From the IMG/VR virus record IMGVR_UViG_3300037245_002080, positions 1-39,746 of that record: 39,746 nucleotides of DNA. One strand, written 5' to 3'. The position numbers and the translations under genes are program-made. Positions 1 to 37,222 of this stretch are shown piece after piece. The notes under the pieces were generated by a model. The model worked only from the letters and a program-made list of their open reading frames with translations. It did no database searches and had not been told where the DNA came from. Each line of letters opens with the position of its first letter. Positions within the stretch are counted from its first letter, which is position 1. Source of the DNA: a virus.

Positions 1-3
1 TTC

Positions 4-498
4 ATGACTACCGGTCAAGCTTCCTTTGATGACGCTTCTGATGATGTAACGTTTAACGACGTCGATTCTGGAGACGACAGTCCTGATGATCAAGATTGGG
101 TTGATCCTGATGATCAAGATTGGGTTGATCCTGATGATACACCTGAAGATACACCTGATGATGCACCTAATGGATTTGCTGAAACCAGTAAGAACCTTAC
201 TGGGAAGAGCAAGAAATTGGATACTGGAATCAGCCATTTATCGTTTAATGGAATGATCAGTAATGGTCCCAATGTTTCCAATATCACTGTTACTATTTCT
301 TCCGGTAGTATGTCCAATAATTATCCCGTGGTCGGGAAGAGCATTTATGAGGTAGAGAAAATGCTGGGTCAGGTTCTCAACGTGAATCCTTACGCTCGTA
401 TCGTTCTTGTCAACGGTGAGGAAGTTACCAACGATTATATCATCATTGAGGGTGATGTCATCGAGTTCGTTAATGAAGCCTATGATAAGGGCTGCTAA
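4..498 (+). CDS. Ubiquitin-like beta-grasp protein with acidic repeat N-terminus
   Basis: Probable ubiquitin-like modifier (ThiS/MoaD/Ub superfamily). The visible 164 residues have two parts. Residues 1-60 are extremely acidic and repetitive, with DDQDWVDP repeated twice followed by DTPED/DTPDD. Residues about 92-164 have a beta-grasp pattern: ITVTISSG, a helix (SIYEVEKMLGQVL), then VLVNGEEV and EGDVIEFV, as in ThiS and MoaD. The protein ends in KGC rather than the usual GG. The next two genes look like E1 and E2 partners, which is the strongest argument for a conjugation role. The frame is open to the left edge of the window, so the true start may lie upstream. A hairpin follows the stop. 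The fold is called by eye from the C-terminal pattern; a free-standing sulfur carrier is the main alternative. Confidence 0.6.
   Translation: MTTGQASFDDASDDVTFNDVDSGDDSPDDQDWVDPDDQDWVDPDDTPEDTPDDAPNGFAETSKNLTGKSKKLDTGISHLSFNGMISNGPNVSNITVTISSGSMSNNYPVVGKSIYEVEKMLGQVLNVNPYARIVLVNGEEVTNDYIIIEGDVIEFVNEAYDKGC
81..138 (+). repeat. 24-bp tandem repeat inside the Ubl gene
   Basis: A 24-nt unit beginning TCCTGATGATCAAGATTGGG occurs twice perfectly (81-104 and 105-128), followed by 10 bases of a third copy. It encodes the in-frame acidic repeat DDQDWVDP, so copy-number change would lengthen or shorten the acidic tail without breaking the gene. Confidence 0.9.
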
Positions 499-523
499 TC
501 GTTAACGGCTAATGTCAATTGTT

Positions 524-545
524 GTGGGGGGCTCCGGTCCCCCAC
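524..545 (+). terminator. Hairpin between Ubl and E1 genes, weak terminator or attenuator
   Basis: GTGGGGG (524-530) pairs perfectly with CCCCCAC (539-545) around an 8-nt loop. The downstream bases CTAACTTTAAAATTT are AT-rich but hold no long T run, so this looks like a leaky terminator or an mRNA 3'-end stabiliser. It would let the Ubl be made in excess over the E1 and E2 enzymes. Confidence 0.5.
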
Positions 546-564
546 CTAACTTTAAAATTTATCG

Positions 565-585
565 AAAGGAGAATTCATGTAAATG
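565..585 (+). promoter_or_regulatory. Ribosome binding site with in-frame start-stop ahead of E1
   Basis: AAAGGAG (565-571) is followed by ATG TAA (577-582) and then at once by the E1 start ATG (583). The first ATG has the better spacing (5 nt) but is followed by an in-frame TAA, making a one-codon ORF. Ribosomes would have to reinitiate at 583 or bind with an 11-nt spacing. Confidence 0.45.
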
Positions 586-1395
586 ATAAAAAAAATTGGA
601 CTCGTTGGGGTCGGTTCACTCGGTAGTCACATAGCGAAGGAGTTACAAAACTATGTTGACACCATTTACGCAGTTGACCCAGATATAGTAGAAAAGAAAA
701 ATCTTATAAATTCAATCTACACTAACGCAGATATAAATAAACCAAAGGTTATTGCATTAAAAGATAATATTTCGCAGTGTCGATTAATTCCAATAAATGC
801 AGACATTAAAAATGTAGAACTCCCATCTGTCGATCAAACAATAGACTGTAGAGATGTTGTAAATCGAAATATTGATACAGATGTGAAATTTATGGTGGTT
901 GGTAAGAATCTTCGTGTTGATTGTGAAGAGCCAGTTTTCACCGAAGATGAAAACGGTAAATATGTGATAGATCTTGATAAACTCGAAGTTTGTCAAGCGG
1001 GGCATCTGGCAAATGAAGTTTTGCAGTCAGATGGTATATTAACTCTTCAAGAGAAAAAATCGTCTATCCATATTCCCATATCAGCTCAATCTGTCGATGA
1101 TGAAATCAAATTTCTCATTCGCCAGAAAAATAAACCACTACTCAAAAGAGATATCAGTAAACACATTTTTAATGAAATTAAAGGAATAAGTGATGCATAT
1201 GGTCGCGTCAAAACCAAGTTATGTAAGATAGATGACCAAATGAATATAAAAATTCGTGGTCCATATATGATGAAGTACCCACAAGTTATTCAAACTTTAA
1301 ATGATATCGTCCTGAGACAAAATGGTACTTATATCATAAATACTCAAGAAAACTGTCTCGAGATATGTGATCCCTTTTTAGTTGGGGGTGCTTAA
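583..1395 (+). CDS. E1/ThiF-like adenylating enzyme
   Basis: ThiF/MoeB/E1-superfamily protein of 270 residues, expected to adenylate the C-terminus of a ubiquitin-like protein with ATP. The Rossmann glycine loop GVGSLG is at residues 9-14. The acidic nucleotide-site strand is AVDPDIVEKKNL (30-41), followed by the family's NKPK lysine region (52-55). A second family feature is TIDCRDVVNRN (86-96). The arginine usually found in the NLxRQ motif is absent (NLINS). Candidate thioester cysteines are C89 and C137; I cannot choose between them. No CxxC zinc pairs are visible. The last ~120 residues are not recognised. The stop overlaps the E2-like start as TAATG, so the two are translationally coupled. 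The enzyme class is fairly certain; the identity of its partner is inferred from neighbours. Confidence 0.8.
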   Translation: MIKKIGLVGVGSLGSHIAKELQNYVDTIYAVDPDIVEKKNLINSIYTNADINKPKVIALKDNISQCRLIPINADIKNVELPSVDQTIDCRDVVNRNIDTDVKFMVVGKNLRVDCEEPVFTEDENGKYVIDLDKLEVCQAGHLANEVLQSDGILTLQEKKSSIHIPISAQSVDDEIKFLIRQKNKPLLKRDISKHIFNEIKGISDAYGRVKTKLCKIDDQMNIKIRGPYMMKYPQVIQTLNDIVLRQNGTYIINTQENCLEICDPFLVGGA

Positions 1396-1820
1396 TGTCA
1401 AATAGGTTGAATAATGTTGATCTGATCACTGAAAGTGGTTGGGTTAAATTTGACAAATCTTGGAGTGGTAAATTTATTCATTATATATTTAAATGTTCAC
1501 TTAAACCAATAATCTGTATATCAAAGGGAAATCTTCAGCCTATTGAATTGGGTGAAGAACACCGATTAACGCATTTTGAATTAATAACGAATATGCGTGG
1601 CGATAAACTTAACTCCGTTTTCCTCGGAAGAGGACAGAAGCATCCTCATAAAGATCCTCAAACACATGAGTTATGTTTGGGTAAATTGAGAGGAGTCGAA
1701 ATAAGTACACAATTAGTTTCAATGATTGTCGACAGTCTTCAGAAATATGACGCGGATGATTGTTTTTGCCTTCCAGATTCATGTAATCTGAGAAAATTTG
1801 AAGAAAGACACGGAGGATAA
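1395..1820 (+). CDS. E2-like (UBC-fold) conjugating protein
   Basis: 141-residue protein with the hallmark HPHKDPQTHELCLGKL at residues 83-98. It matches the HP(N/H)...G.(I/L)CLG active-site signature of E2 ubiquitin-conjugating enzymes and of bacterial E2-like families, which puts the catalytic cysteine at C94. Upstream residues GKFIHYIFKC and EEHRLTHFELI fit the strands of a small UBC-like sheet. It would receive the Ubl from the E1 and pass it to a target; no E3 or deubiquitinase is seen nearby. The start overlaps the E1 stop by one base, and the stop lies three bases before the beta' start. The terminal GG is encoded by the GGAGGA SD of the next gene, so it need not be functional. The call rests on the active-site motif plus gene order. 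Confidence 0.65.
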   Translation: MSNRLNNVDLITESGWVKFDKSWSGKFIHYIFKCSLKPIICISKGNLQPIELGEEHRLTHFELITNMRGDKLNSVFLGRGQKHPHKDPQTHELCLGKLRGVEISTQLVSMIVDSLQKYDADDCFCLPDSCNLRKFEERHGG

Positions 1821-1823
1821 TCG

Positions 1824-4490
1824 ATGCCAAACATTCTGGATTATAATAAATTTTGTGAAAATCTAGAGCCAGTAACTTCAGTGAAAATGTTCAAGAAGCG
1901 TTTCTTTCATGCGGAAGGGCTCTTTTCAGAACAGATATTTGGTCCCCTGAAAAACTACACATGTCAATGTGGAACATATTACGGGAAATCAAAGTCTGGT
2001 GGTAGATGTAAAGTTTGTAATGTTGAGATTGCTAACAGTAATGAACGAAGAAAACGATTTGCAAAGATCATACTTCCAATACCTGTCGTTAATCCGCTTA
2101 TGTATGATCTTATTGTATCATTAGGTGGAAAGGCAATAAAAGCACCTCTAGACAATCTCATGAAAAATGAAAAGAGTATTTTATACGTAATAGGTGATGA
2201 AACGTTTGTCGTTCATGATGATGAGAAGATTCCAAGGACAGCAACTCGTTATGAAAAGGCTGATGCGATCCACGTTCTAGTAAAATCTTTTAGTGAAATG
2301 ATGTATGAAGATATGGAAGATGAAAACTGGAAAAAGTTAGTTCTGAATATTGATAACTTTTTAATTCGTGAGATTATAGTCTTACCACCCGATCTACGTC
2401 CATCAACTCGAAGTGGTTCTCAGCAATTAATGGATAAGATCAATCGCTATTACATACAGATATTAACAAAGAAGGAAGTTATGCAAGCATCATTTCTTAC
2501 AGCTATTCAGGACAAAAGCATATACTATACCTTCTTCAGAAATTTACAAAAAGATGTCAAAGAGTTACACGAAAAAATATTAGAGAAACTTGCCAAGAAG
2601 GAGGGTTTGATCAGAGGAAATATTCTTGGTAAAAGAATTGATTTTTCAGGAAGGGCCGTTATAGTTCCAGAACCATCTTTATCACTCGACGAATGTGTAT
2701 TGCCATACAAAATGGTTTTAGAGATATTCAAGCTACAGGTGGCCAAAAGAATTATTGGTTTAGGTCGTTTCAAAAAATTACCAACAGCTCTCAATTATAT
2801 AAACAAATGTATTAAATTCAATCATTTAGGCTTGTTGGATATTTGTGAAGAAACAATAAAAGGTAAGGTATGTATACTCAACAGACAACCATCGTTGCAT
2901 CGTTTGGGAATGTTGGGTTTTAATATAAAGGTATCCCAGGATTCGGTCATCAAAGTACACCCATTGATTTGTAGTCCGTTCAATGCAGACTTTGACGGGG
3001 ATCAAATGGCTGTGTATATACCACTTTCCGAGGAAACCATTCAAGAAGTTAAAGATAAAATGTTTGTCACAAAAAATTTAATCAGTCCTGCAAATGAAGA
3101 GTTAACCACTCTACCAAGTCAGGATATTGTATTAGGTATTTATTACCTAACATCTGGAAGATTTGATGATGATGATTTTAATGGTCTTGAACATTTCAAT
3201 TCATTGTTGCCAGATGAATTTAAAACTGTAACGTATACCGTTGATGAGAAAAAACTTATAAGCATATTAGATCAAGTGAGAATAGATTTTCCAGATAAAA
3301 TTGTTGGATTATTGGATGACATAAAGAAAACTGGTTTCTACTATTCAACTCTGTCTGGTTGTACGCTTTCTCTTGACGACTTTTTGATAGAAGATGTTCA
3401 GAAGGTCAAGGATTATATCTATGATACTGGTGGTGATATATACGAATCATTGAAAAGGTCCGGTTCAAATGATGTTATAGAATTTCTAAAAAATAATTTT
3501 AGGTATGCAGATTTGATTGAATCTGGTGCTCGTGGAAGTTGGGATCAGGCTAGACAGTTGTGTCTATCTCGTGGATTTGTTTCAAACTTTAGCGGGGAGA
3601 TTCATGATAAACCTATAGTTAACAATTTAACAGATGGTTTAACACAAAGTGAATTTTTCGATTCGACCTATGGTTGTCGCAAAGGATTACTCGATACTGC
3701 TCTAAATACCGGAACATCTGGATACTTATCGAGAAAGCTTATATTTACTTGCGCTAACTTACAGTTATCAGATTCAGTGGCAGATTGTGGAACGAAAGAC
3801 TTTCTTGAGGTTAAAGTAACAGATAAAAAGAAAGCATCATGTTTTGTTAATAGATCCATAAAAGATGAAAACCAGTTAAAGATTATCACACGCGAGAACT
3901 ATGGTGATATAATTGGGAAAACAATCAAAGTCAGAAGTCCGATCTATTGCAAGAATGATAAGATCTGTCAAACATGTTACGGGGAGTCTTATAAAACTTT
4001 AAACAGCACTTTTATAGGTATCATTGCTGCACAGACCCTCGGTGAGAAATCCACTCAACTTGTTCTACGAACATTCCATACGTCTGGTTCAGCGATCATC
4101 AAAGAAGGCGCAGACAAAAAAGATATGAAACAAGAAGATATTATTGGAGATTTATCTGCGGTGTCTTCAATGCTTCATAAATTTAAAGATAGAAAGTGCG
4201 AAGACTTGGTACATGATCTGTTTGCAGTATATGACAGAAATGTATATCATGTCCATTATGAATGCGTTGTGGCTCAGTTAATGTGGGTCGGTATGAAAAA
4301 GTGGAGATTGTGTTCAGATAGAAATAAGTATAAACCAAAATTCCATAGCATTCAGTCAGTTCCAGATCAAGAGAGCTGGATGTTGGCAATGTCTTTTTCT
4401 AACCCAAGAAAAAGCATTCTGCACGGAATCATAAATTCTGGTAATTATTCAGGAATTATGGACAAGATACTTAGGGGTGAAAAAGTCTAA
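1824..4490 (+). CDS. DNA-directed RNA polymerase beta'-like subunit
   Basis: Phage-encoded beta' subunit, 888 residues against about 1400 in E. coli, but with all core regions in order. It has an N-terminal zinc finger (C47, C49, C62, C65), the lid/rudder region GNILGKRIDFSGRAVIV, and RQPSLHRLGMLG. The Mg-binding loop NADFDGDQM is at residues 387-395. Then come a funnel and bridge-helix region (GARGSWDQARQLCLSRG), TYGCRKGLLDTALNTGTSGYLSR, and a second zinc site with CKNDKICQTCYG. The trigger loop is AAQTLGEKSTQLVLRTFHTSG-like, and the C-terminal clamp follows. Every catalytic acid is present, so it should be active with the beta subunit next door. It starts after GGAGGA and is tightly linked to the E1/E2 genes. 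The short length reflects loss of lineage-specific insertions rather than truncation. Confidence 0.95.
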   Translation: MPNILDYNKFCENLEPVTSVKMFKKRFFHAEGLFSEQIFGPLKNYTCQCGTYYGKSKSGGRCKVCNVEIANSNERRKRFAKIILPIPVVNPLMYDLIVSLGGKAIKAPLDNLMKNEKSILYVIGDETFVVHDDEKIPRTATRYEKADAIHVLVKSFSEMMYEDMEDENWKKLVLNIDNFLIREIIVLPPDLRPSTRSGSQQLMDKINRYYIQILTKKEVMQASFLTAIQDKSIYYTFFRNLQKDVKELHEKILEKLAKKEGLIRGNILGKRIDFSGRAVIVPEPSLSLDECVLPYKMVLEIFKLQVAKRIIGLGRFKKLPTALNYINKCIKFNHLGLLDICEETIKGKVCILNRQPSLHRLGMLGFNIKVSQDSVIKVHPLICSPFNADFDGDQMAVYIPLSEETIQEVKDKMFVTKNLISPANEELTTLPSQDIVLGIYYLTSGRFDDDDFNGLEHFNSLLPDEFKTVTYTVDEKKLISILDQVRIDFPDKIVGLLDDIKKTGFYYSTLSGCTLSLDDFLIEDVQKVKDYIYDTGGDIYESLKRSGSNDVIEFLKNNFRYADLIESGARGSWDQARQLCLSRGFVSNFSGEIHDKPIVNNLTDGLTQSEFFDSTYGCRKGLLDTALNTGTSGYLSRKLIFTCANLQLSDSVADCGTKDFLEVKVTDKKKASCFVNRSIKDENQLKIITRENYGDIIGKTIKVRSPIYCKNDKICQTCYGESYKTLNSTFIGIIAAQTLGEKSTQLVLRTFHTSGSAIIKEGADKKDMKQEDIIGDLSAVSSMLHKFKDRKCEDLVHDLFAVYDRNVYHVHYECVVAQLMWVGMKKWRLCSDRNKYKPKFHSIQSVPDQESWMLAMSFSNPRKSILHGIINSGNYSGIMDKILRGEKV

Positions 4491-4512
4491 CTTTATCAAG
4501 GAGGGATTTAAT

Positions 4513-7500
4513 TTGAAAATAGTAAACCCACACTACAAGATTAGGGATGAAGATAACAACATTTTTATGTTGAGAAGAAAAGATTATGAGCGCATTCTGC
4601 CTGTTGTACAGGAAATAGTTCAGCCTGTCGAAGAGATAGGGTTTTCAATTGATAAAGTTGAGATGAAAAGCTCTCGAAACATAAAGGGTGAGCTCTCGAA
4701 AACTTTATATTCGATACTTCAAATGAAGTTTTCGAAGGGCTCATCATTAATTGAATTGAAACTTTATATTCCTAAGCTGATAGATAATAATTATATGTTC
4801 ATCAATGGAAGGAAGAAGATTCCATTATTTCAACTTTTTGACGTACCGATTGTTATGCGCGGCGAAAAATTGAAAATGCGAACTAATGTTGGAACGCTTT
4901 TAGTGTATTCGAAAAAAGATTCGCCATATGTGGTTTGTGGATATTTGGGAAAACGGGTTCCATTTGCATTGATCCTGATGGCATTTTATGGTCCAGAGAC
5001 TCTTAAGAGCATGTTTCAGGAAGAACTCACACGTATCACCAAACAAAATGAACCAGAGGATAACATTTATGATAGATTGTTATTCGATATAAAAATGTAT
5101 TTTAATGAATCTATTGGTTATACTCAAGATGATTTTATTAAAGAATTAGGGAAGCTATACACAAAATACAATACAATCACAAAAGGAAATGATATTATAT
5201 ATTCACTCGACCTTATTCCAAAGGTTGACATTTTTACCAGAGAGTTTTTAGAAACTGGTTCTATTCTTGAGGATATTATATTGGGTTTGAAGAGGGGAGA
5301 AGTTGATGATACCATACTTCAGAATAAAAGAATCAGATGCTTCGAGTATGTTATATATAGCAGCGTCTGCAAAATAATTTTCGATATGTGTTTAAGTAAC
5401 AGAGACATTCGAAAGCCCAAGTTTAATACAAACACCAAACAGTTGATCACAGCCAGTAATGTTTCTGAAATTGTGCAATTTGATTTCAGTATTAATCCTA
5501 TAGATAAGTTAACAAAATTAAGTCGTGCAAGTCTACTTGGTCCCGGGGGTTTTAGAAGAGAAAATATTCCTAGACATCTTCGTGATATCTATCCTACAAT
5601 GTTTGGTAGAATGTGCCCTGTGGATACTCCTGATAGGGAGAATTGTGGAGTTCTTCAGAATCTAATACCTAACGTACCACTAGATAATAACATGCGATTT
5701 ACGGACTCTTACTGCGAAAAGCAACCTATATCTATACCAGTATCATTTATACCATTTTGTGAGCATGACGATCAGACTCGCCTTCAAATGGCATCATCCC
5801 AAATGAGACAGGCTATTCTTCTTAAAGAGTTCGACAAACCAATAATTCAATCTGGTTGCGAACACCTTTACACAAAATATACCGATTTTATTAAAATGGC
5901 CCCAAAAAATGGAGAGGTTTTATATCTGAATGAACAATATATGGTTGTCCTGTATGAAGACAAAACCGGAGAGGTTTTCGATATTTCCAGTAGAAAAATA
6001 TACGTACATAACGTAGACATCATGAGGACATATTTTAAAGAAGGTGAACACTTTAAAGCTGGTGATATTTTAGCTGAGAGTGATTATTGTAAAGATGGTG
6101 ATATTATCTTTGGTAAAAACTTTCTAACAGGAATCATGATCCATTATGGATATAACTATGAAGATGGGATCGTAATATCAGATAAACTATCTAAAAGTGG
6201 AGCATTGACATCTGTACATTTCATTGATTTATCATTCACAATGAAACCAGATAGAGTTTTATTAGATCGCCTTGGTCGTCATGGAGTATATGAACCACTA
6301 CCGACACCTAATACACTATTGGAACCTGGGGATGTTTATGCGAGAATGCAGAAATTAACAACGGAAGATCATTTCTCAGAATTCCACGAGTCGACTGTTT
6401 TAGAAACTCCCAAGCGAGTTCTTATAACTGATGTCAAAATATACGCAAACACATGGAATAACGATGTGCCAATTTATAGAGAATGGATTGAGAACTTTAT
6501 GCAAAAGCAAATTGATGATCAAGAAAGTCTTAGAAATGTTGTCATGAAAAAACTTCCAGAAGACATATCAACCGATTTTGTAAGAGATCATCTTCATTTT
6601 GATAATGTCGGGAAATATAAAATAAAGAAAGAAAAGATCGATGGAATCCATATAGAAATGTACGGAATTCAAATGAAGACAATCAAGGTTGGTGATAAAA
6701 TTGGAAATCGTCATGGGAATAAAGGCGTTATTTCAACCATCATGCCAGAGAATAAAATGCCACAGTTAGAGGATGGCCGTCATTTGGATATATGCATGAA
6801 TCCATTGGGTATACTTTCTCGAATGAATATTGGTCAGCTTTACGAATTGCATTTGGGAATGGCTGTTAACGATCTAAAAACTCAAGCATTACACATGTTA
6901 GAGGCTGGTGATAAGGCTGCTATAAGAGACTATCTAATTGATTTTATAAAAATTATCGACAAAACAGAGGGATGGTATCTGGATCAGTTTGTTGAAAAAC
7001 TGCCAGACGAGATAGATGAAAAATTTCTAGAAGACTTCTCAGTTATTCAGCCACCATTTCAAAGTATTAAAGTCGAAGATCTAAAGGCAGCAATGGAATA
7101 TACAAACACCAAGTTTAAATATAAGGTCTTTGATCCACCATCACAAAAAATGGTTATGAGTCCGATTTCTGTTGGATATGTTTATTTCTTTCGCATGACC
7201 CATATTGCTGATGATAAATTAGCGGCTCGAGGAATTGGGTCTTATGCAAAACGGACCCTACAACCTCTTGGTGGAAGAAAGAATAAAGGTGGACAGCGTT
7301 GTGGTGAAATGGAGACTGCATGTTTCATTGGTCATGACGCAATGAAGAATTTACATGAAATGTTCACATTGAAATCTGATTGTTTTGACACAAAAAACAA
7401 TTATATTAAAAATCTAATAGATCCACAAAACATTATCGAAACAGATATAAAAGATCCTATACCAGAATCTGTTCGTTTGTTAAATTCATATCTCACCGTC

Positions 7501-7545
7501 CTTGGTGTTGATCATAGAGGAAAAGATTATGAAAGAACTACCTGA
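4513..7545 (+). CDS. DNA-directed RNA polymerase beta-like subunit
   Basis: Phage beta subunit of about 1010 residues (E. coli has 1342), encoded as one uninterrupted gene. Conserved blocks are in order: SRASLLGPGGFRRENIPR with MFGRMCPVDTPDRENCG (rifampicin-pocket region), GYNYEDGIVISDK, GDKIGNRHGNKGVIS, NPLGILSRMNIGQLYELHLG, and near the C-terminus QPLGGRKNKGGQRCGEMET. I choose TTG at 4513 because AAGGAGGG (4498-4505) sits 7 nt upstream. A GTG at 4477, inside the beta' end, would add 12 residues but lacks such a site. Together with beta' it forms the catalytic core. No alpha, omega or sigma-like gene is seen in the window. The end overlaps the FolE2 start by 17 bases. Confidence 0.95.
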   Translation: MKIVNPHYKIRDEDNNIFMLRRKDYERILPVVQEIVQPVEEIGFSIDKVEMKSSRNIKGELSKTLYSILQMKFSKGSSLIELKLYIPKLIDNNYMFINGRKKIPLFQLFDVPIVMRGEKLKMRTNVGTLLVYSKKDSPYVVCGYLGKRVPFALILMAFYGPETLKSMFQEELTRITKQNEPEDNIYDRLLFDIKMYFNESIGYTQDDFIKELGKLYTKYNTITKGNDIIYSLDLIPKVDIFTREFLETGSILEDIILGLKRGEVDDTILQNKRIRCFEYVIYSSVCKIIFDMCLSNRDIRKPKFNTNTKQLITASNVSEIVQFDFSINPIDKLTKLSRASLLGPGGFRRENIPRHLRDIYPTMFGRMCPVDTPDRENCGVLQNLIPNVPLDNNMRFTDSYCEKQPISIPVSFIPFCEHDDQTRLQMASSQMRQAILLKEFDKPIIQSGCEHLYTKYTDFIKMAPKNGEVLYLNEQYMVVLYEDKTGEVFDISSRKIYVHNVDIMRTYFKEGEHFKAGDILAESDYCKDGDIIFGKNFLTGIMIHYGYNYEDGIVISDKLSKSGALTSVHFIDLSFTMKPDRVLLDRLGRHGVYEPLPTPNTLLEPGDVYARMQKLTTEDHFSEFHESTVLETPKRVLITDVKIYANTWNNDVPIYREWIENFMQKQIDDQESLRNVVMKKLPEDISTDFVRDHLHFDNVGKYKIKKEKIDGIHIEMYGIQMKTIKVGDKIGNRHGNKGVISTIMPENKMPQLEDGRHLDICMNPLGILSRMNIGQLYELHLGMAVNDLKTQALHMLEAGDKAAIRDYLIDFIKIIDKTEGWYLDQFVEKLPDEIDEKFLEDFSVIQPPFQSIKVEDLKAAMEYTNTKFKYKVFDPPSQKMVMSPISVGYVYFFRMTHIADDKLAARGIGSYAKRTLQPLGGRKNKGGQRCGEMETACFIGHDAMKNLHEMFTLKSDCFDTKNNYIKNLIDPQNIIETDIKDPIPESVRLLNSYLTVLGVDHRGKDYERTT

Positions 7546-8368
7546 CATTCAAAATACTACACCAAAAATACGTGAAAAGATATGTAAAGTTGGTGTAGAA
7601 AATGTCGAACTCCCGTTCCTCTTAATTCTGAGGGACGGGGGGACTCCCAGCTATATTCAGGTGAACGCCAAAACTGAAATGGTTTGTGAGCTCGATGAAT
7701 CAACTAGAGGGGTTTCAATGTCAAGATTCACAAGAATTTTACAACCATATTTAAGACAACCCCTCAAACGAACAATATTAGAATCAATATTAAGAGATTT
7801 CACAAAATCACTTGAAACAAAAACTGCATCTATAAAATTTAAATTTAAAATACCAGTGATAAAAAAATCACCTATTTCAAACAATGAATTTCCACAGTAT
7901 TACTCGTGTAGTTTTAAAAGTGTTTTCTCAGAAAATAAATTTAAATTTTATGAAAGTGTTCGAATTCAGTATTCAGCATATTGTCCCTGCTCTGCTGCTT
8001 TATGTCAAGAAGGTAAGTTTGGGTTTCCACATAATCAGAGAGCGTTTGCTGATATCCTGATACAAACAAACCCAAGAGCATATATATGGTTAGAAAACAT
8101 TATCGATTGTGTTGAAACGTCCGTTCATACAATTCCCTTCCCTATTGTTAAAAGGAGTGATGAAAAATGGATCGCAGGTGTCGCAAAAACACATCCTCAG
8201 TTTGTTGAGGATTCGATAAGAGGGATATCTCACAGGTTGAATTATATGAAAAACGTAGTAGATTGGTTCGTGAAATGCACACATGAGGAATCAATTCATA
8301 CATCAAATGCTATTGCAATGAATTGGAAAGGAAAAGAAGGTGGTTTCAATGAAACTACCTGTATTTAA
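7529..8368 (+). CDS. folE2: GTP cyclohydrolase FolE2-like (GCYH-IB)
   Basis: 279-residue homologue of the type IB GTP cyclohydrolase family (FolE2/MptA), which converts GTP to dihydroneopterin triphosphate, the entry step to folate and to 7-deazaguanine (preQ0, queuosine) compounds. Family features: an N-terminal PDIQN...KVGV motif (residues 5-23), MSRF (64-67), CPCS with C152 and C154 as candidate metal ligands, HNQR (168-171), and VKRSDEKWI followed by HPQFVEDSIR. The start is ATG 7529, with AGAGG 8 nt upstream and the protein beginning MKELPDIQN; an ORF start at 7502 lacks this support. It is coupled to the RNAP beta gene. Phages are known to use this pathway for DNA hypermodification, but no other pathway gene is in this window, so the end product is unknown. 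Confidence 0.85.
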   Translation: MKELPDIQNTTPKIREKICKVGVENVELPFLLILRDGGTPSYIQVNAKTEMVCELDESTRGVSMSRFTRILQPYLRQPLKRTILESILRDFTKSLETKTASIKFKFKIPVIKKSPISNNEFPQYYSCSFKSVFSENKFKFYESVRIQYSAYCPCSAALCQEGKFGFPHNQRAFADILIQTNPRAYIWLENIIDCVETSVHTIPFPIVKRSDEKWIAGVAKTHPQFVEDSIRGISHRLNYMKNVVDWFVKCTHEESIHTSNAIAMNWKGKEGGFNETTCI

Positions 8369-32463: not shown

Positions 32464-33321
32464 TTATCCACTAATGAATGTCATTGATTTGAACACTCCA
32501 GATTTCCAATATATGGCTGGACTGAAGTAGGACGTTGTGCTAACATCAAAAAATGAGAGTACTGCGTACCTGCTCCAAGTAATATCATTGTTGAAAAAAT
32601 CTTTAAAATTATATGGATAGTAGTTTCTAAACGTTTCCATTGCATCGCTAGCATAAACATGTAATTGCATACCAACGTATGTTCCACCACCTCCAGTTAT
32701 CGCCATCCTTAACCTATTAGTCAGACTCCAGCTAAGAGTGCCATCTTCGGTATAATTTATTCTTACACCACCATCAGTATCAGGTGCTCTTCGCATTGAT
32801 ATTACATCATCTTCTGCAAAAGGACAACCCCCGTCATTCCATTCAGTACCAATTACCACCTGAAATGTATCAGGTGGATATGGCCATCCAGTTCCCATAA
32901 ATGGCATTTCACTAACAGATGAACTCGAAGAGCTTGAGCTTAGGCTGGACAATGAACTCGAAGAGCTTGAGCTTGAACTGGTTGACGAACTCGAAGAGCT
33001 TGAGCTTGTTGATGAACTCGAAGAGCTTGAGCTGGAGCTCGTTGACGAACTCGAAGAGCTTGAGCTTACACTTGAGCTGCTTGAGCTTGTGCTGCTTGAG
33101 CTGCTTGAGGATGAGCTGCTTGAGCTTGTGCTGCTTGAGCTTGAGCTTGAGCTTCCCCTATAAAGAACAGTAGCAGTTGTTTTACCTGTTGGTGCATTTG
33201 GTTTAAAATCTATTGTTCTTAGTTCCCATCCATCTGTACCTTCAGCATTTAAAGCAGCTTCGGTAGCCGCATCATCGTCAAAATTCTCAATTGTTTCAAT
33301 TTTATATACGAAAGCCTCCAT
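32464..33321 (-). CDS. Polyserine-stalk appendage protein 1
   Basis: 285 residues in three parts. Residues 1-54 are a small domain (AFVYKIETIENFDDDAATEA, then EGTDGWELRTI) resembling DUF4177-type domains. Residues 55-134 are almost pure serine with scattered Thr, Val and Leu. Residues 140-285 are a beta-rich C-terminal domain (GTGWPYPPDTFQVVIG, then YTEDGTLSWSLTNRLRM, ending SMTFISG). The same layout recurs at 33667-34491. A rigid or glycosylated serine stalk with a binding head suits a tail fibre or capsid decoration. The start overlaps the stop of the preceding 58-residue gene as TAATG. The C-terminal head has no family I can name. Confidence 0.78.
   Translation of the reverse strand: MEAFVYKIETIENFDDDAATEAALNAEGTDGWELRTIDFKPNAPTGKTTATVLYRGSSSSSSSSTSSSSSSSSSSSSTSSSSSSVSSSSSSSSTSSSSSSSSSSTSSSSSSSSTSSSSSSSSSLSSLSSSSSSSSVSEMPFMGTGWPYPPDTFQVVIGTEWNDGGCPFAEDDVISMRRAPDTDGGVRINYTEDGTLSWSLTNRLRMAITGGGGTYVGMQLHVYASDAMETFRNYYPYNFKDFFNNDITWSRYAVLSFFDVSTTSYFSPAIYWKSGVFKSMTFISG
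32919..33155 (-). repeat. Polyserine-encoding repeat tract 1
   Basis: About 240 bases encode the serine stalk with a roughly 21-24 nt unit (minus strand AAGCTCAAGCTCTTCGAGTTC) that mixes AGC, AGT, TCA, TCT and TCG codons. The unit recurs at 34141-34330 and 35239-35425. Reverse-strand ORFs rich in LEU/GLU or SER/LEU over these tracts are shadows. Confidence 0.9.
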
Positions 33322-33497
33322 TATATTGTCCTCATATAGATCACTGTAGCAGTTGTTTTACCTGTTGATGCGTTTGGTTTATGAGTTATTGACATCAAAT
33401 CCCACCCATTTGCACCTTCAGCATTTAAGACAGCTTGAGTAGCCGCATCATCATCATAATTCTCAATTGTTTCAATTTTATATACGAAAGCTGCCAT
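33321..33497 (-). CDS. Stand-alone copy of the appendage N-terminal domain
   Basis: 58-residue ORF from ATG 33497 after GGATATAAAA, running MAAFVYKIETIENYDDDAAT through ANGWDLMSITHKPNAST and ending MRTI. It is nearly the same as the first 54 residues of both polyserine proteins but stops where their serine stalk begins. The stop overlaps the next start (TAATG), so it is coupled to polyserine protein 1. It may be a functional free domain, for example a stoichiometric partner of the fused ones, or a remnant of duplication. The intact frame and SD favour a real gene. Confidence 0.7.
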   Translation of the reverse strand: MAAFVYKIETIENYDDDAATQAVLNAEGANGWDLMSITHKPNASTGKTTATVIYMRTI

Positions 33498-33543
33498 TTT
33501 TATATCCTCTTTTTATGTATGAACTCATTTATATTTTGTTCTT

Positions 33544-33657
33544 TTATTTTTGAGAAATAATTATTCTTAAGTCCCCATCGTCAACTATTCTAACATTAAA
33601 GGCATCAGTTATTCTAAAAGAAGTTTCACTTCTTGGTTCGCCTGTTATTACTATCAT
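33544..33657 (-). pseudogene. Recombinant 37-codon ORF starting with sulfotransferase 5' end
   Basis: ATG 33657 opens MIVITGEPRSETS, matching the sulfotransferase N-terminus, then changes to an unrelated tail (FRITDAFNVRIVDDGDLRII) and stops at 33544. 33627-33659 is identical to 32413-32445 for 33 bases, spanning that start codon. The SD is poor. It is best read as a recombination scar between gene copies. The rest of 33498-33666 holds no other gene. Confidence 0.55.
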
Positions 33658-33666
33658 TTTGCATCT

Positions 33667-34491
33667 TTAATTATCAATAAATGTAATTGATTTAAATATT
33701 TCGTCTTGATAATATAGATATGGGGTAAAACCTGATGTTGTAGTAACATCAAAATAACTTGGGATTACATGTTCACTAAAGTATGGATCAGTGTCCCAAA
33801 ACGCTTTAAAGTCATATGGGTTAATAGGAACACCTGCATATATAGCAGATTCATACCAAGAGGCACCTGTACCATCCTCTTTCGCTGGAGTCAAATACCA
33901 CCATATACTGGTAGGATTTTTATCACCGATTCTCATTTTTAATCTATTGGTTGTATTATTTGCAACAAGAGTTCCATCTTCTGTATAAGATATCTCGCTA
34001 GTATCTTCACCTGCCCTTTTGAGTCTAATAACATCATTTTCAACGAAATAAATATTACTTTCATTCCATCTATTACCAATCACAACTTCAATTTCATCAG
34101 GTAAATATGGCCAACCTGCTCCCATCCATGGAGCATCACTAACAGATGAACTTGATGAACTTGATGAGGCTACTGATATGCTTGATGAACTCGAAGAGTT
34201 CGAAGAGCTTGAGCTGGAGCTTGTTGATGAACTCGAAGAGCTTGAACTGGTTGATGAACTCGAAGAGCTTGAACTGGTTGATGAACTCGAAGAGCTTGAA
34301 CTCACACTTGAGGAGCTTGAGCTTCCCCTATAAAGAACAGTAGCAGTTGTTTTACCTGTTGATGCGTTTGGTTTATGAGTTATTGATATCACATCCCATC
34401 CATCTGCACCTTCAGCATTTAAAGCAGCTTCGGTAGCCGCATCATCGTCATAATTTTCAATCGTTTCGGTTTTATATACAAACGCTTCCAT
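33667..34491 (-). CDS. Polyserine-stalk appendage protein 2
   Basis: 274 residues, a paralogue of the protein at 32464-33321. It has the same N-terminal domain (AFVYKTETIENYDDDAATEA, EGADGWDVISITHKP), a serine stalk at residues 54-117, and a homologous C-terminal head (GAGWPYLPDEIEVVIG, YTEDGTLVANNTTNRLKM, ending SITFIDN). N-terminal and stalk DNA are nearly identical between paralogues, while the heads have diverged clearly. This is the pattern of receptor-binding proteins under selection for new specificity. It lies directly downstream of the large baseplate/appendage gene that carries a similar stalk. Confidence 0.78.
   Translation of the reverse strand: MEAFVYKTETIENYDDDAATEAALNAEGADGWDVISITHKPNASTGKTTATVLYRGSSSSSSVSSSSSSSSTSSSSSSSSTSSSSSSSSTSSSSSSSNSSSSSSISVASSSSSSSSVSDAPWMGAGWPYLPDEIEVVIGNRWNESNIYFVENDVIRLKRAGEDTSEISYTEDGTLVANNTTNRLKMRIGDKNPTSIWWYLTPAKEDGTGASWYESAIYAGVPINPYDFKAFWDTDPYFSEHVIPSYFDVTTTSGFTPYLYYQDEIFKSITFIDN
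34141..34330 (-). repeat. Polyserine-encoding repeat tract 2
   Basis: About 190 bases of the same mixed-codon serine unit as tract 1, in the appendage protein 2 gene. Near-exact repeats of GAACTCGAAGAGCTTGA (plus strand) are visible at several places. Homology to tract 1 continues into the flanking N-terminal coding sequence. Confidence 0.9.
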
Positions 34492-34528
34492 TTTTTATAT
34501 CCTCTATATTTTTGATAATCAAGTATTC

Positions 34529-37222
34529 TTAAGTAACATGCTTTAAAACAATTCCACCTGCAATAGCTCCTGATGTTCCAGCAATCCAATTAAAAGTTTT
34601 ATTATCTGTGTCTGCATCTGGTAAGTATGTTTTTGACCGAAGAGTACTAGAAAAGATTCGACCAGTGACCGGACCTTGATCATAATAACCGTAATCTTGA
34701 CCCTCTAAATCACCATAAGTATACTCGGGGGCATCTTCACTTAGTACCCCCCGCCTTGCTTCAACGAGAAAAATTATAGGTTGATCACCAATATCATAAC
34801 TAAAGCTATTAGTTGGAATACTTAATGTGTCGAAATTGGTGTTAGAGGTGGAGTCGAAGATTGGATTATCTTGATCTACATTTTCATAACCTGCGTATGC
34901 TATTATAGTTCCTTCATCAGGTTGAATTGACCAACCAGCATTAAAAGAATCACCAACCATTAAAGCTATGTCAGATTCTAACATATAACCAATCCATGTA
35001 TGCATAGTATTAAATGTTCTATCATCAACATTTATACTAAGGATTGATGTCATATCTACGCCGCCTAATGTAGGATTTGCAAATGCATTACTTCCGGTTA
35101 AATTTGACTTCGCTACAATATATGCAACTACACATCTATTAGTTCCGTCAGGCACAGTAAATGTGGCGGTAACAGGATCAGAATCATCGTAACCATCATG
35201 TTCCCAACCAGTGCCTATTAAGTTTACTTCCAGAGGGGCTACTGTTGAAGTTGAGCTTGAGCTCGAACTGGTTGATGAACTAGAAGAGCTTGAGCTTAGA
35301 CTAGACGATGAACTAGAACTCGAAATTGACTCAAATGAAAAACTCGATGAAGAACTAGAACTTGAGAGTGAACTCGAACTCGATGAACTGGAAGAGCTAC
35401 TGGATACAGAACTAGATGAACTAGATTGGTATATCTCTATAACACAAACGTCCATACCTGTCAGACAATCGAATGTTCCACCACCATCAAATTCTGCCAT
35501 CCCACCAGTTTGAATGTGTACGTATGTTGCTCCATTATCAATTGCAGCCGTTGAATCAGCAAAGTATGCTCCATCTCCTTCTACATCTATATTTTCAACA
35601 ATAAGATCTGCATTCGTAGCATCATACGGAACACATATCAATGATTCGTGATGCTCATCATCAAGTTGTGTTTGTAAACCCAATGGACTATCTGTTGCTG
35701 CACCAATATCATAATTCGAATTACAATCATAAGTATCTCTTTGATAATACAGATCATCTGAACCAGTCGAATCTATACAGACAGTTAGTTCGTCTGTTGA
35801 ATCTATCGAGATCGCACAGCATGGTATTCCATCAGCTGTGGCAAAATCATTAATATTGTGTTCCATCTCTATAGTGCCAAGGGAATCTTCAACGACGATA
35901 GTATTAAAAAGTCTATTCTTGAACTGGAGAGCTTCAAGAAGAATATATCGTGCTCGATAGGGTTTGAAGAAATTAACAACTGGTTTCAGATCCTCAAAGA
36001 ATGAAGACAGCCCGTCGATCATATAAGCGAAATTTATAAAACCAAAACCAATATTGTTTCTAACCCATATAGCCAAGTCATTGATAAGACTACTTAAAAC
36101 CTCTTTTGGTGGATCGGTGTAAAGAAGATCATCAATGTCAGATTTTAGAGTTGGATCTATTGCTGTCAATAGAGTTTGTGCATCAGAAGAATTTTGTAAA
36201 AAGTTTGATGGTTGTATTCTATTAAACTTTTCATAATATTCATTTAGCTGAATTAATATTTGCTCTCTCGTTTTTGGCTGACCAGTAACAACTTCATAAT
36301 CTGTTATTATTTGAAGGTACTCAGAATCAGTACCATCATAACAAATGAATAAATCGCCATCTACTCCTGTTGGATAGTTTGTATTAAAAACATATAAAAC
36401 AGACAGGTATAATGCTAACAAAGATGATGTAGAATTGGTTGTTCTTATCTCAGCATTTTGTGGTAAAGTTCCGCCATTGGCGTATATTCCATATTGATCC
36501 TGAATTATTCTACTGAGGATTGCTGTTTCTGGCCCTTCTGCATCAATAACCGGACGAATACCAATATATGGAGTTTTCGACGGTAGATTAATTGAACTAC
36601 GATTATGCAGGGCTAGAATCTGATCAGATGTATATAGCCAATGTGGGTCGGATGATGTAAACTCTTCATATTGAACATCTAATAGTCCCGGGTTGGTTGT
36701 TGTTCCAGCAATCGCTTGACCACGAAAGATTAGCTCATCAACAGTCTCCAATCTTAAGAAAAATTCAAAGATATCAACTTCTGCTAAACCATAGTATTGT
36801 AATACATCAACCAAGGCTTGCGGCGTTCCCTTCACTTTATAAAGATTAACTAAATCCAACATAAGGGCTGTTTTATTTGGTAGGGGATTTTCATCGATAT
36901 TACCAAGTGTAACAGAATGGTCATATCCAAAACTTCTGAATAATTCATCTAAATCTGAATTGGACATTGAATATGGATCAGATAAGTTTGCTGTAGTTTT
37001 GACAACTGATTTATGTGCTGAGTATAAATCAATTAGGAATTTTCTTAGCCTTTTATAGTCAGCAGTATTATAGGATAACTGGTCAATAACATTGCCAAAA
37101 TAGTTGTCGGAACGAGCATCTTGATCTTTAGTTAGAGCATTCATTGTATCGGTCAGGGTGCTTGGATTTTCACCTGATGCCGATCTTAGAATGTCCCAAA
37201 AGAGATCTATATTTAGAGCCAA
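34529..37222 (-). CDS. Large baseplate/appendage protein with polyserine linker
   Basis: 897 residues. The N-terminal ~560 residues look like a baseplate or tail-fibre-attachment protein. The segment ALMLDLVNLYKVKGTPQALVDVLQYYGL resembles the RYKGTP...L motif of gpI-like and related wedge proteins, and helices precede it. Residues 599-661 are a serine stalk with Phe, Glu, Leu and Thr interruptions. Residues 665-897 are a beta-sandwich-like domain (GTGWEHDGYDDSDPVTATFTV, later GAIAGGIVLKHV) typical of carbohydrate- or surface-binding modules. It thus joins a virion anchor to a serine-linked head, and the two downstream genes carry separate stalked heads. The function is inferred from architecture. 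The start ATG follows GGAGGAATAAA. Confidence 0.75.
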   Translation of the reverse strand: MALNIDLFWDILRSASGENPSTLTDTMNALTKDQDARSDNYFGNVIDQLSYNTADYKRLRKFLIDLYSAHKSVVKTTANLSDPYSMSNSDLDELFRSFGYDHSVTLGNIDENPLPNKTALMLDLVNLYKVKGTPQALVDVLQYYGLAEVDIFEFFLRLETVDELIFRGQAIAGTTTNPGLLDVQYEEFTSSDPHWLYTSDQILALHNRSSINLPSKTPYIGIRPVIDAEGPETAILSRIIQDQYGIYANGGTLPQNAEIRTTNSTSSLLALYLSVLYVFNTNYPTGVDGDLFICYDGTDSEYLQIITDYEVVTGQPKTREQILIQLNEYYEKFNRIQPSNFLQNSSDAQTLLTAIDPTLKSDIDDLLYTDPPKEVLSSLINDLAIWVRNNIGFGFINFAYMIDGLSSFFEDLKPVVNFFKPYRARYILLEALQFKNRLFNTIVVEDSLGTIEMEHNINDFATADGIPCCAISIDSTDELTVCIDSTGSDDLYYQRDTYDCNSNYDIGAATDSPLGLQTQLDDEHHESLICVPYDATNADLIVENIDVEGDGAYFADSTAAIDNGATYVHIQTGGMAEFDGGGTFDCLTGMDVCVIEIYQSSSSSSVSSSSSSSSSSSSLSSSSSSSSFSFESISSSSSSSSLSSSSSSSSTSSSSSSTSTVAPLEVNLIGTGWEHDGYDDSDPVTATFTVPDGTNRCVVAYIVAKSNLTGSNAFANPTLGGVDMTSILSINVDDRTFNTMHTWIGYMLESDIALMVGDSFNAGWSIQPDEGTIIAYAGYENVDQDNPIFDSTSNTNFDTLSIPTNSFSYDIGDQPIIFLVEARRGVLSEDAPEYTYGDLEGQDYGYYDQGPVTGRIFSSTLRSKTYLPDADTDNKTFNWIAGTSGAIAGGIVLKHVT
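35239..35425 (-). repeat. Polyserine-encoding repeat tract 3
   Basis: About 190 bases inside the large appendage gene encoding the serine linker. Units are more degenerate than in tracts 1 and 2, with TTC, GAG and TTG codons interspersed (residues FSFESIS), which suggests an older or less recently homogenised tract. Confidence 0.85.

Follow-up and report, generated by a model that had tools for sequence, protein, structure and literature searches.

Genes upstream of the phage RNA polymerase genes

We analysed an entire IMG/VR record of 39,746 bases (the window), which carries contractile-tail genes (sheath, baseplate) and is probably a fragment of a genome. Three proteins encoded at 32464-37222 contain long serine runs (SSSSSS); two of the three are similar to each other, and they are probably tail-associated. 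The window begins, on the + strand, with the gene for a putative ubiquitin-like protein (Ubl; 1..498), whose 5′ end is lost at the contig edge and whose product has an acidic linker, a C-terminal beta-grasp-like domain and the end ..NEAYDKGC. A preliminary description had taken 4-498 as a whole gene. This is not so: the protein of the relatives described below is ~50 residues longer at the N-terminus, the ATG at position 4 is internal, and the FMTTGQASFDDA of the window aligns with the internal ..NYFMSTGQASFEDA of the relatives, which places the start of the contig inside the Ubl gene.

Directly 3′ of the Ubl stop codon lies a G+C-rich hairpin (524..545, +; z -3.1), and directly 5′ of the next gene lies AGGAGAATTCATGTAAATG (567..585, +), a Shine-Dalgarno-like sequence and then a start-stop (ATG TAA). 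The next gene (583..1395, +) encodes E1b, a second E1/ThiF-like protein of 270 aa that was characterised by Pfam ThiF, Foldseek and a 7-member alignment. It is followed by the gene for E2b (1395..1820, +), a small E2-like candidate of 141 aa containing HPHKDPQTHELCLG with the conserved Cys94. Both open reading frames are real and overlap at TAATG as first described, and the rpoC-like gene for the beta′ subunit of a phage RNA polymerase (RNAP; 1824..4490, +) indeed starts 3 bases past position 1820. The rpoB-like gene for the beta subunit (4477..7545, +) comes next and, directly 3′ of it, a gene for a FolE2-type GTP cyclohydrolase (7502-8368; NF010200, 5.6e-62, just under the cut-off, which the FolE2-like protein of the relative L026 exceeds). 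The presence of FolE2 beside rpoB hints at a modified-nucleotide or pterin pathway. The arrangement ATG-TAA-ATG after a Shine-Dalgarno, directly before E1b, is shared by the window, L002, L003 and L005 and may control translation. We also considered whether ATGTAAATG is a promoter element used repeatedly and rejected this, since the window has a single copy of the full pattern and two copies of ATGTAAATG by itself, where 1.15 are expected.

Gene order is conserved in six relatives

Direct searches of IMG/VR and of GenBank phages with E1b and E2b gave some Rossmann-level matches and no true relatives, and we therefore reached the relatives through rpoC. They comprise the close IMG/VR contigs L002-L005 (rpoC identity 81-85%), L026, which is further removed (58%), and L027 (58%) and L028 (48%), both of which come from archaeal MAG bins. 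L003 and L004 are nearly one and the same phage and were counted once, giving six distinct relatives, with rpoC identities of 48-85%, in addition to the window. L028 is a 211-kb contig with a terminase-like gene aboard and no exact overlap between its ends; a separate RNAP gene of the same bin sits on another contig. The placement of L028 in a Woesearchaeota MAG and of L027 in a Thermoplasmatales MAG is probably mis-binning. The loci contain no tRNA genes and thus offer no clue to the host. Among the better rpoC matches we found no cassette genes in the GenBank Rhizobium phage RHph_TM30.

As far as each contig extends, the gene order is the same in 6/6 relatives: a radical SAM protein, a protein of only ~100-130 aa, a first E2-like protein (E2a), a JAMM protease (PRTRC_A-like), a first E1 (E1a), the Ubl, E1b, E2b, rpoC and rpoB (5′ to 3′), with a FolE2-like gene after rpoB in most of them. 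In L026 two additional genes separate Ubl from E1b, and another separates E2b from rpoC. The coordinates of the radical SAM gene are 408-1421 in L004, 437-1471 in L026 and 2314-3246 in L028; the best NCBIfam match of its product is prokaryotic viperin in L004 and L026 (9.7e-11 and 2.9e-12, far under the cut-off of that model) and a tungsten-cofactor maturase model in L028.

The proteins first described as the E1 and E2 of the window are therefore a second, lineage-specific pair that lies 3′ of a full PRTRC-like cascade. The JAMM protein, the first E1 and the first E2-like protein had been missed because in the window they fall off the contig. The original proposal of a phage Ubl-E1-E2 cassette beside RNAP genes is thus better supported than a first reading of the window could know, since the order is conserved in six relatives, which also have a JAMM protease and a further E1/E2 set.

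The upstream cascade is related to PRTRC cassettes

The JAMM protein of the relatives is clearly homologous to PRTRC_A (1.1e-11 in L026 and 6.9e-10 in L028, below the curated cut-off of 101.8 bits), and its catalytic residues E84, H134, H136, S144 and D147 are invariant in the six aligned sequences. Its best PDB sequence match is RPN11, at a non-significant E of 0.12. E1a matches PRTRC_ThiF (TIGR03736) over nearly its full length (1.7e-7 and 2.4e-10, under the cut-off), is scored higher by generic ThiF models, and has GxGGxG, D47, N55, R58, Q59, K67, D121 and C188 as invariants. E2a, which retains a Cys conserved among the relatives, is fused into proteins of 841-1220 aa in the relatives and stands alone, at 233 aa, in L028; there it has a weak match to Prok-E2_D (PF14460; 6.4e-4) and one to TIGR03737 (0.027), both under the cut-off. 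Prok-E2_B was not found in the relatives, and no cassette member reached a curated E2 cut-off. Profiles built from the cassette matched loci that had been left out of them, both for JAB (1.2e-23 in L023 and 2.4e-15 in L025) and for E2a (3.1e-10 and 6.5e-5, respectively). Because no cassette member exceeds a curated PRTRC cut-off, we call the cassette PRTRC-related and not PRTRC. The comparison with PRTRC made in the preliminary description thus pointed in the right direction (PRTRC_A 1.1e-11, PRTRC_ThiF 2.4e-10), with both matches under the curated cut-offs.

The Ubl carries an N-terminal Rho_N domain

In the full-length relatives the Ubl has a Rho_N (SAP-like) domain at its N-terminus, over the Pfam cut-off (2.0e-6 in L028, 3.1e-6 in L026). 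The C-terminal domain has a VNG...GD...EF pattern, as in ThiS-like proteins with a beta-grasp fold, and weak Pfam matches to ThiS and SAMP2, so that the beta-grasp assignment made earlier is supported at the level of sequence pattern. TIGR03738 (PRTRC_C) did not match the Ubl of L004, L028 or the window, and searches of PDB sequences with the Ubl and E2b profiles gave no matches. The tail is KG in L004, L005 and L026-L028 and KGC in the window and L002; the C-terminal GG expected of ThiS/MoaD sulphur carriers is absent from all members. In L026-L028 the tail reads AGTKG/AGSKG and, by eye, resembles the G-x-KG with which phage Ubls of PRTRC type end.

A stable hairpin follows the Ubl stop codon in every locus compared (z -2.7 to -5.7). 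Moreover, ATA makes up 4/72 of the Ile codons of Ubl; for the cassette and RNAP genes around it the figure is 558/1523 (Fisher p 3e-9, with genes as non-independent samples). In the window Ubl none of the 10 Ile codons is ATA. The hairpin and the avoidance of ATA suggest that the Ubl may be expressed more strongly than its enzymes.

E1b and E2b are a second E1-like/E2-like pair

The assignment of 583-1395 as ThiF/E1-like was confirmed by Pfam ThiF (3.4e-8) and by Foldseek, in which the predicted model, with a pLDDT of just 62, matched E1 structures with a best E of 3.5e-6. In the 7-member alignment G9, G11, G14, D32, N40, K55, D88, R90 and D91 are invariant. Although GxGxxG, D32, K55 and D88 are thus kept, the Arg of the RQ motif is replaced, and the alignment contains no invariant (catalytic) Cys, C89 and C114 being replaced in L028. 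The C-terminal part is predicted as beta-beta-alpha-beta-beta, which is the order in the ubiquitin-fold domains of E1s; we regard such a domain in E1b as a lead from the model, in which Foldseek did not single that part out. E1b ends in GGA or GAA in 6/7 members, and this end is lost in L028. We considered the GGA as a hidden Ubl tail and rejected it, as it is conserved mostly because it holds the Shine-Dalgarno of the overlapping E2b gene (GGGGGTGCTTAATG).

The HPH...C noted earlier in the third open reading frame is real. The preliminary description had made conservation of C94 in homologues a check on the E2 assignment, and the Cys is kept in 7/7 aligned members; the full HP[NH]-x8-C[LIM] is present in 6/7, and the most divergent one, L028, reads YPTKLNPIEVC, with HPN changed to YPT. 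We also looked for HP[NH]x6-9C[LIVM] in the long six-frame ORFs of six loci (57,398 residues in all), and it was confined to the E2b genes. An alignment of E2b with UBC by hhalign placed the HPN/Cys stretch in register at P 0.014, close to the 0.037 of an unrelated control and equal to the P of the Prok-E2_D set; a set of UBC sequences entered by hand served as the yardstick. E2b had no Pfam or NCBIfam E2 match. Its predicted model (pLDDT 77, from 4 sequences) gave no match with E<=0.001 in the PDB and no E2/UBC among the matches listed there. Among the best 50 viral structures listed, the only E2, that of Bodo saltans virus, ranked 18th (E 1.0) and had the best TM (0.44). On balance we lean slightly towards E2b being an E2.

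Comparison with known conjugation systems

Bacterial JAB-E1-E2-Ubl operons, including a type 6d whose E2 is without the HPN His, were described by Iyer et al. 2006 (PMC1779556), together with the Ubl/JAB pair of lambda-type phage tails. We equate the PRTRC cassette (TIGR03735 onward; A = JAB, B = E2-like, C = Ubl, ThiF = E1) with this type 6d. The phage cassette has the same types of parts on separate genes: a JAB, a standalone ThiF-type E1, a Prok-E2_D-type E2 without the HPN His and a Ubl with a C-terminal Gly. It differs from PRTRC in scoring under every curated cut-off, in the fusion of most E2a into 841-1220 aa proteins, in the Rho_N domain of its Ubl, in the added E1b/E2b pair and in its fixed place before rpoC-rpoB. 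The PRTRC ParB-related gene and proteins D, E and F were not found among the subset of flanking genes scanned.

Homologous JAB, E1a and E2a are present in Bacillus phage vB_BauM_KLEB27-3, Vibrio phage D69, Salmonella phage Arash, the gut contig MT835919 and the plasmid pN497-ZHONG. Where the Ubl end was read (KLEB27-3, D69, Arash and pN497-ZHONG) it is G-x-KG, like the KG here. In contrast to the phage cassette, KLEB27-3, D69 and pN497-ZHONG have tandem Ubl repeats, and in D69 and Arash the RNAP lies tens of kilobases away from the PRTRC-like cassette, whereas here it is adjacent. The Ubl of KLEB27-3 (L022, 718-1425) consists of four tandem PRTRC_C repeats (8.8e-17, over the cut-off); it may be a poly-Ubl that the JAB of this phage could cut.

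Two defence systems share parts with the cassette. Bil (BilABCD) likewise has a Ubl, an E1, an E2 and JAB-type enzymes. It is a bacterial defence operon, whereas we describe a phage operon with a single beta-grasp domain joined to Rho_N. The earlier comparison with Bil is not supported; PADLOC and NCBIfam, which may lack Bil models, gave no Bil-specific match. CBASS Cap2/Cap3 (an E1-E2 fusion and a JAB) resembles the cassette in its E1 domain (PADLOC E1-E2, 6e-10) and its JAMM partner; unlike in CBASS, E1 and E2 are separate genes here, there is a dedicated Ubl gene, and no CD-NTase was seen.

Interpretation of the cassette

Taken together, we think it probable that the window starts partway through a phage PRTRC-related Ubl-conjugation operon and contains its 3′ half, with E1b and E2b as a second, lineage-specific pair. 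The cassette is most likely, judging from its genes and their conserved residues, a reversible Ubl-conjugation system. Where the Ubl ends in KGC, the JAMM protein would cut its C-terminus back to the Gly (KG). E1a would adenylate the Ubl and bind it, by a thioester, to the conserved Cys of the enzyme. By way of the E2a (Prok-E2_D) domain the Ubl would pass to a lysine of target proteins, from which the JAMM protein could also remove it. E1b may bind or adenylate the Ubl or serve as a partner subunit of E1a, and E2b may act through its Cys as a further conjugating or adaptor enzyme and determine which targets are chosen. Since the Ubl has a Rho_N domain, the tag would give its target a putative nucleic-acid-binding head. 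One may imagine, with gene order as the basis, that this tag is placed through the second E1/E2 pair on RNAP or other transcription proteins of phage or host as a reversible viral control of transcription; we consider this improbable.

Several bacterial Ubl cascades of known function serve in antiphage defence. We found no function for PRTRC-type cassettes in the literature, and no description of this phage cassette in the open-licence papers searched, which is weak evidence of absence. The relatives look like a lineage of large uncultured phages with an apparent full Ubl-tagging kit in the RNAP gene block and with a second enzyme pair that was found nowhere else searched. A lineage that keeps the full cassette beside RNAP, with duplicated E1/E2-like enzymes, is a bounded system in which to ask whether phages tag proteins and which ones. 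If real, the system would give the prokaryotic world a ubiquitin-like pathway encoded by a virus.

There is a substantial minority chance that E1a, E2a and the JAMM protein conjugate alone, that E1b is a dead relative of E1s and E2b a small Cys/His protein other than an E2, and that the pair is an RNAP-linked adaptor, inhibitor or counter-factor. The absence of RQ and of an invariant Cys from E1b and the unrecognised fold of E2b in structure searches agree with this, as does the fast evolution of both proteins. With pN/pS <1 in all pairs for these two and for Ubl, dN was 0.30-0.48 for E1b and 0.42-0.74 for E2b versus 0.10-0.13 for rpoC, a protein change about 3-6x faster at similar dS (dS near saturation). 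In addition, E2b was not found in the other PRTRC-like phage and plasmid records, which were searched whole, and the E1b profile matched only their ordinary E1s. However, the Cys of E2b in 7/7 members, with HP[NH]-x8-C in 6/7, and the retained GxGxxG, D32, K55 and D88 of E1b argue for enzymes, and chance poorly explains an E1-like and an E2-like gene as neighbours.

A conjugating operon is also to be weighed against a sulphur-carrier (ThiS/MoaD-like) pathway, which we regard as unlikely; here a Ubl thiocarboxylate would serve tRNA, nucleotide or cofactor modification, with the FolE2 and radical SAM neighbours included. ThiF/MoeB-type models do give the best scores for E1a and E1b, the FolE2 and radical SAM genes lie on either side of the block, and some sulphur operons include a JAB protein (PMC1779556). 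Yet the Ubl ends in KG/KGC and not GG and is fused to Rho_N, the same operon encodes an E2-family protein, no rhodanese was found among the scanned proteins, and neither QueE nor MoaA is a clear identity for the radical SAM protein, whose matches are all far under the cut-offs. A third alternative, which we think very improbable, makes E1b an MccB-like adenylase that modifies peptides or C-termini, with E2b as its partner and the pair unrelated to the Ubl. In its favour are MccB, which is among the best structural matches of the E1b model, and the GGA/GAA end; against it, the E1s of Ubl systems are equally good structural matches and the GGA is largely the Shine-Dalgarno of E2b.
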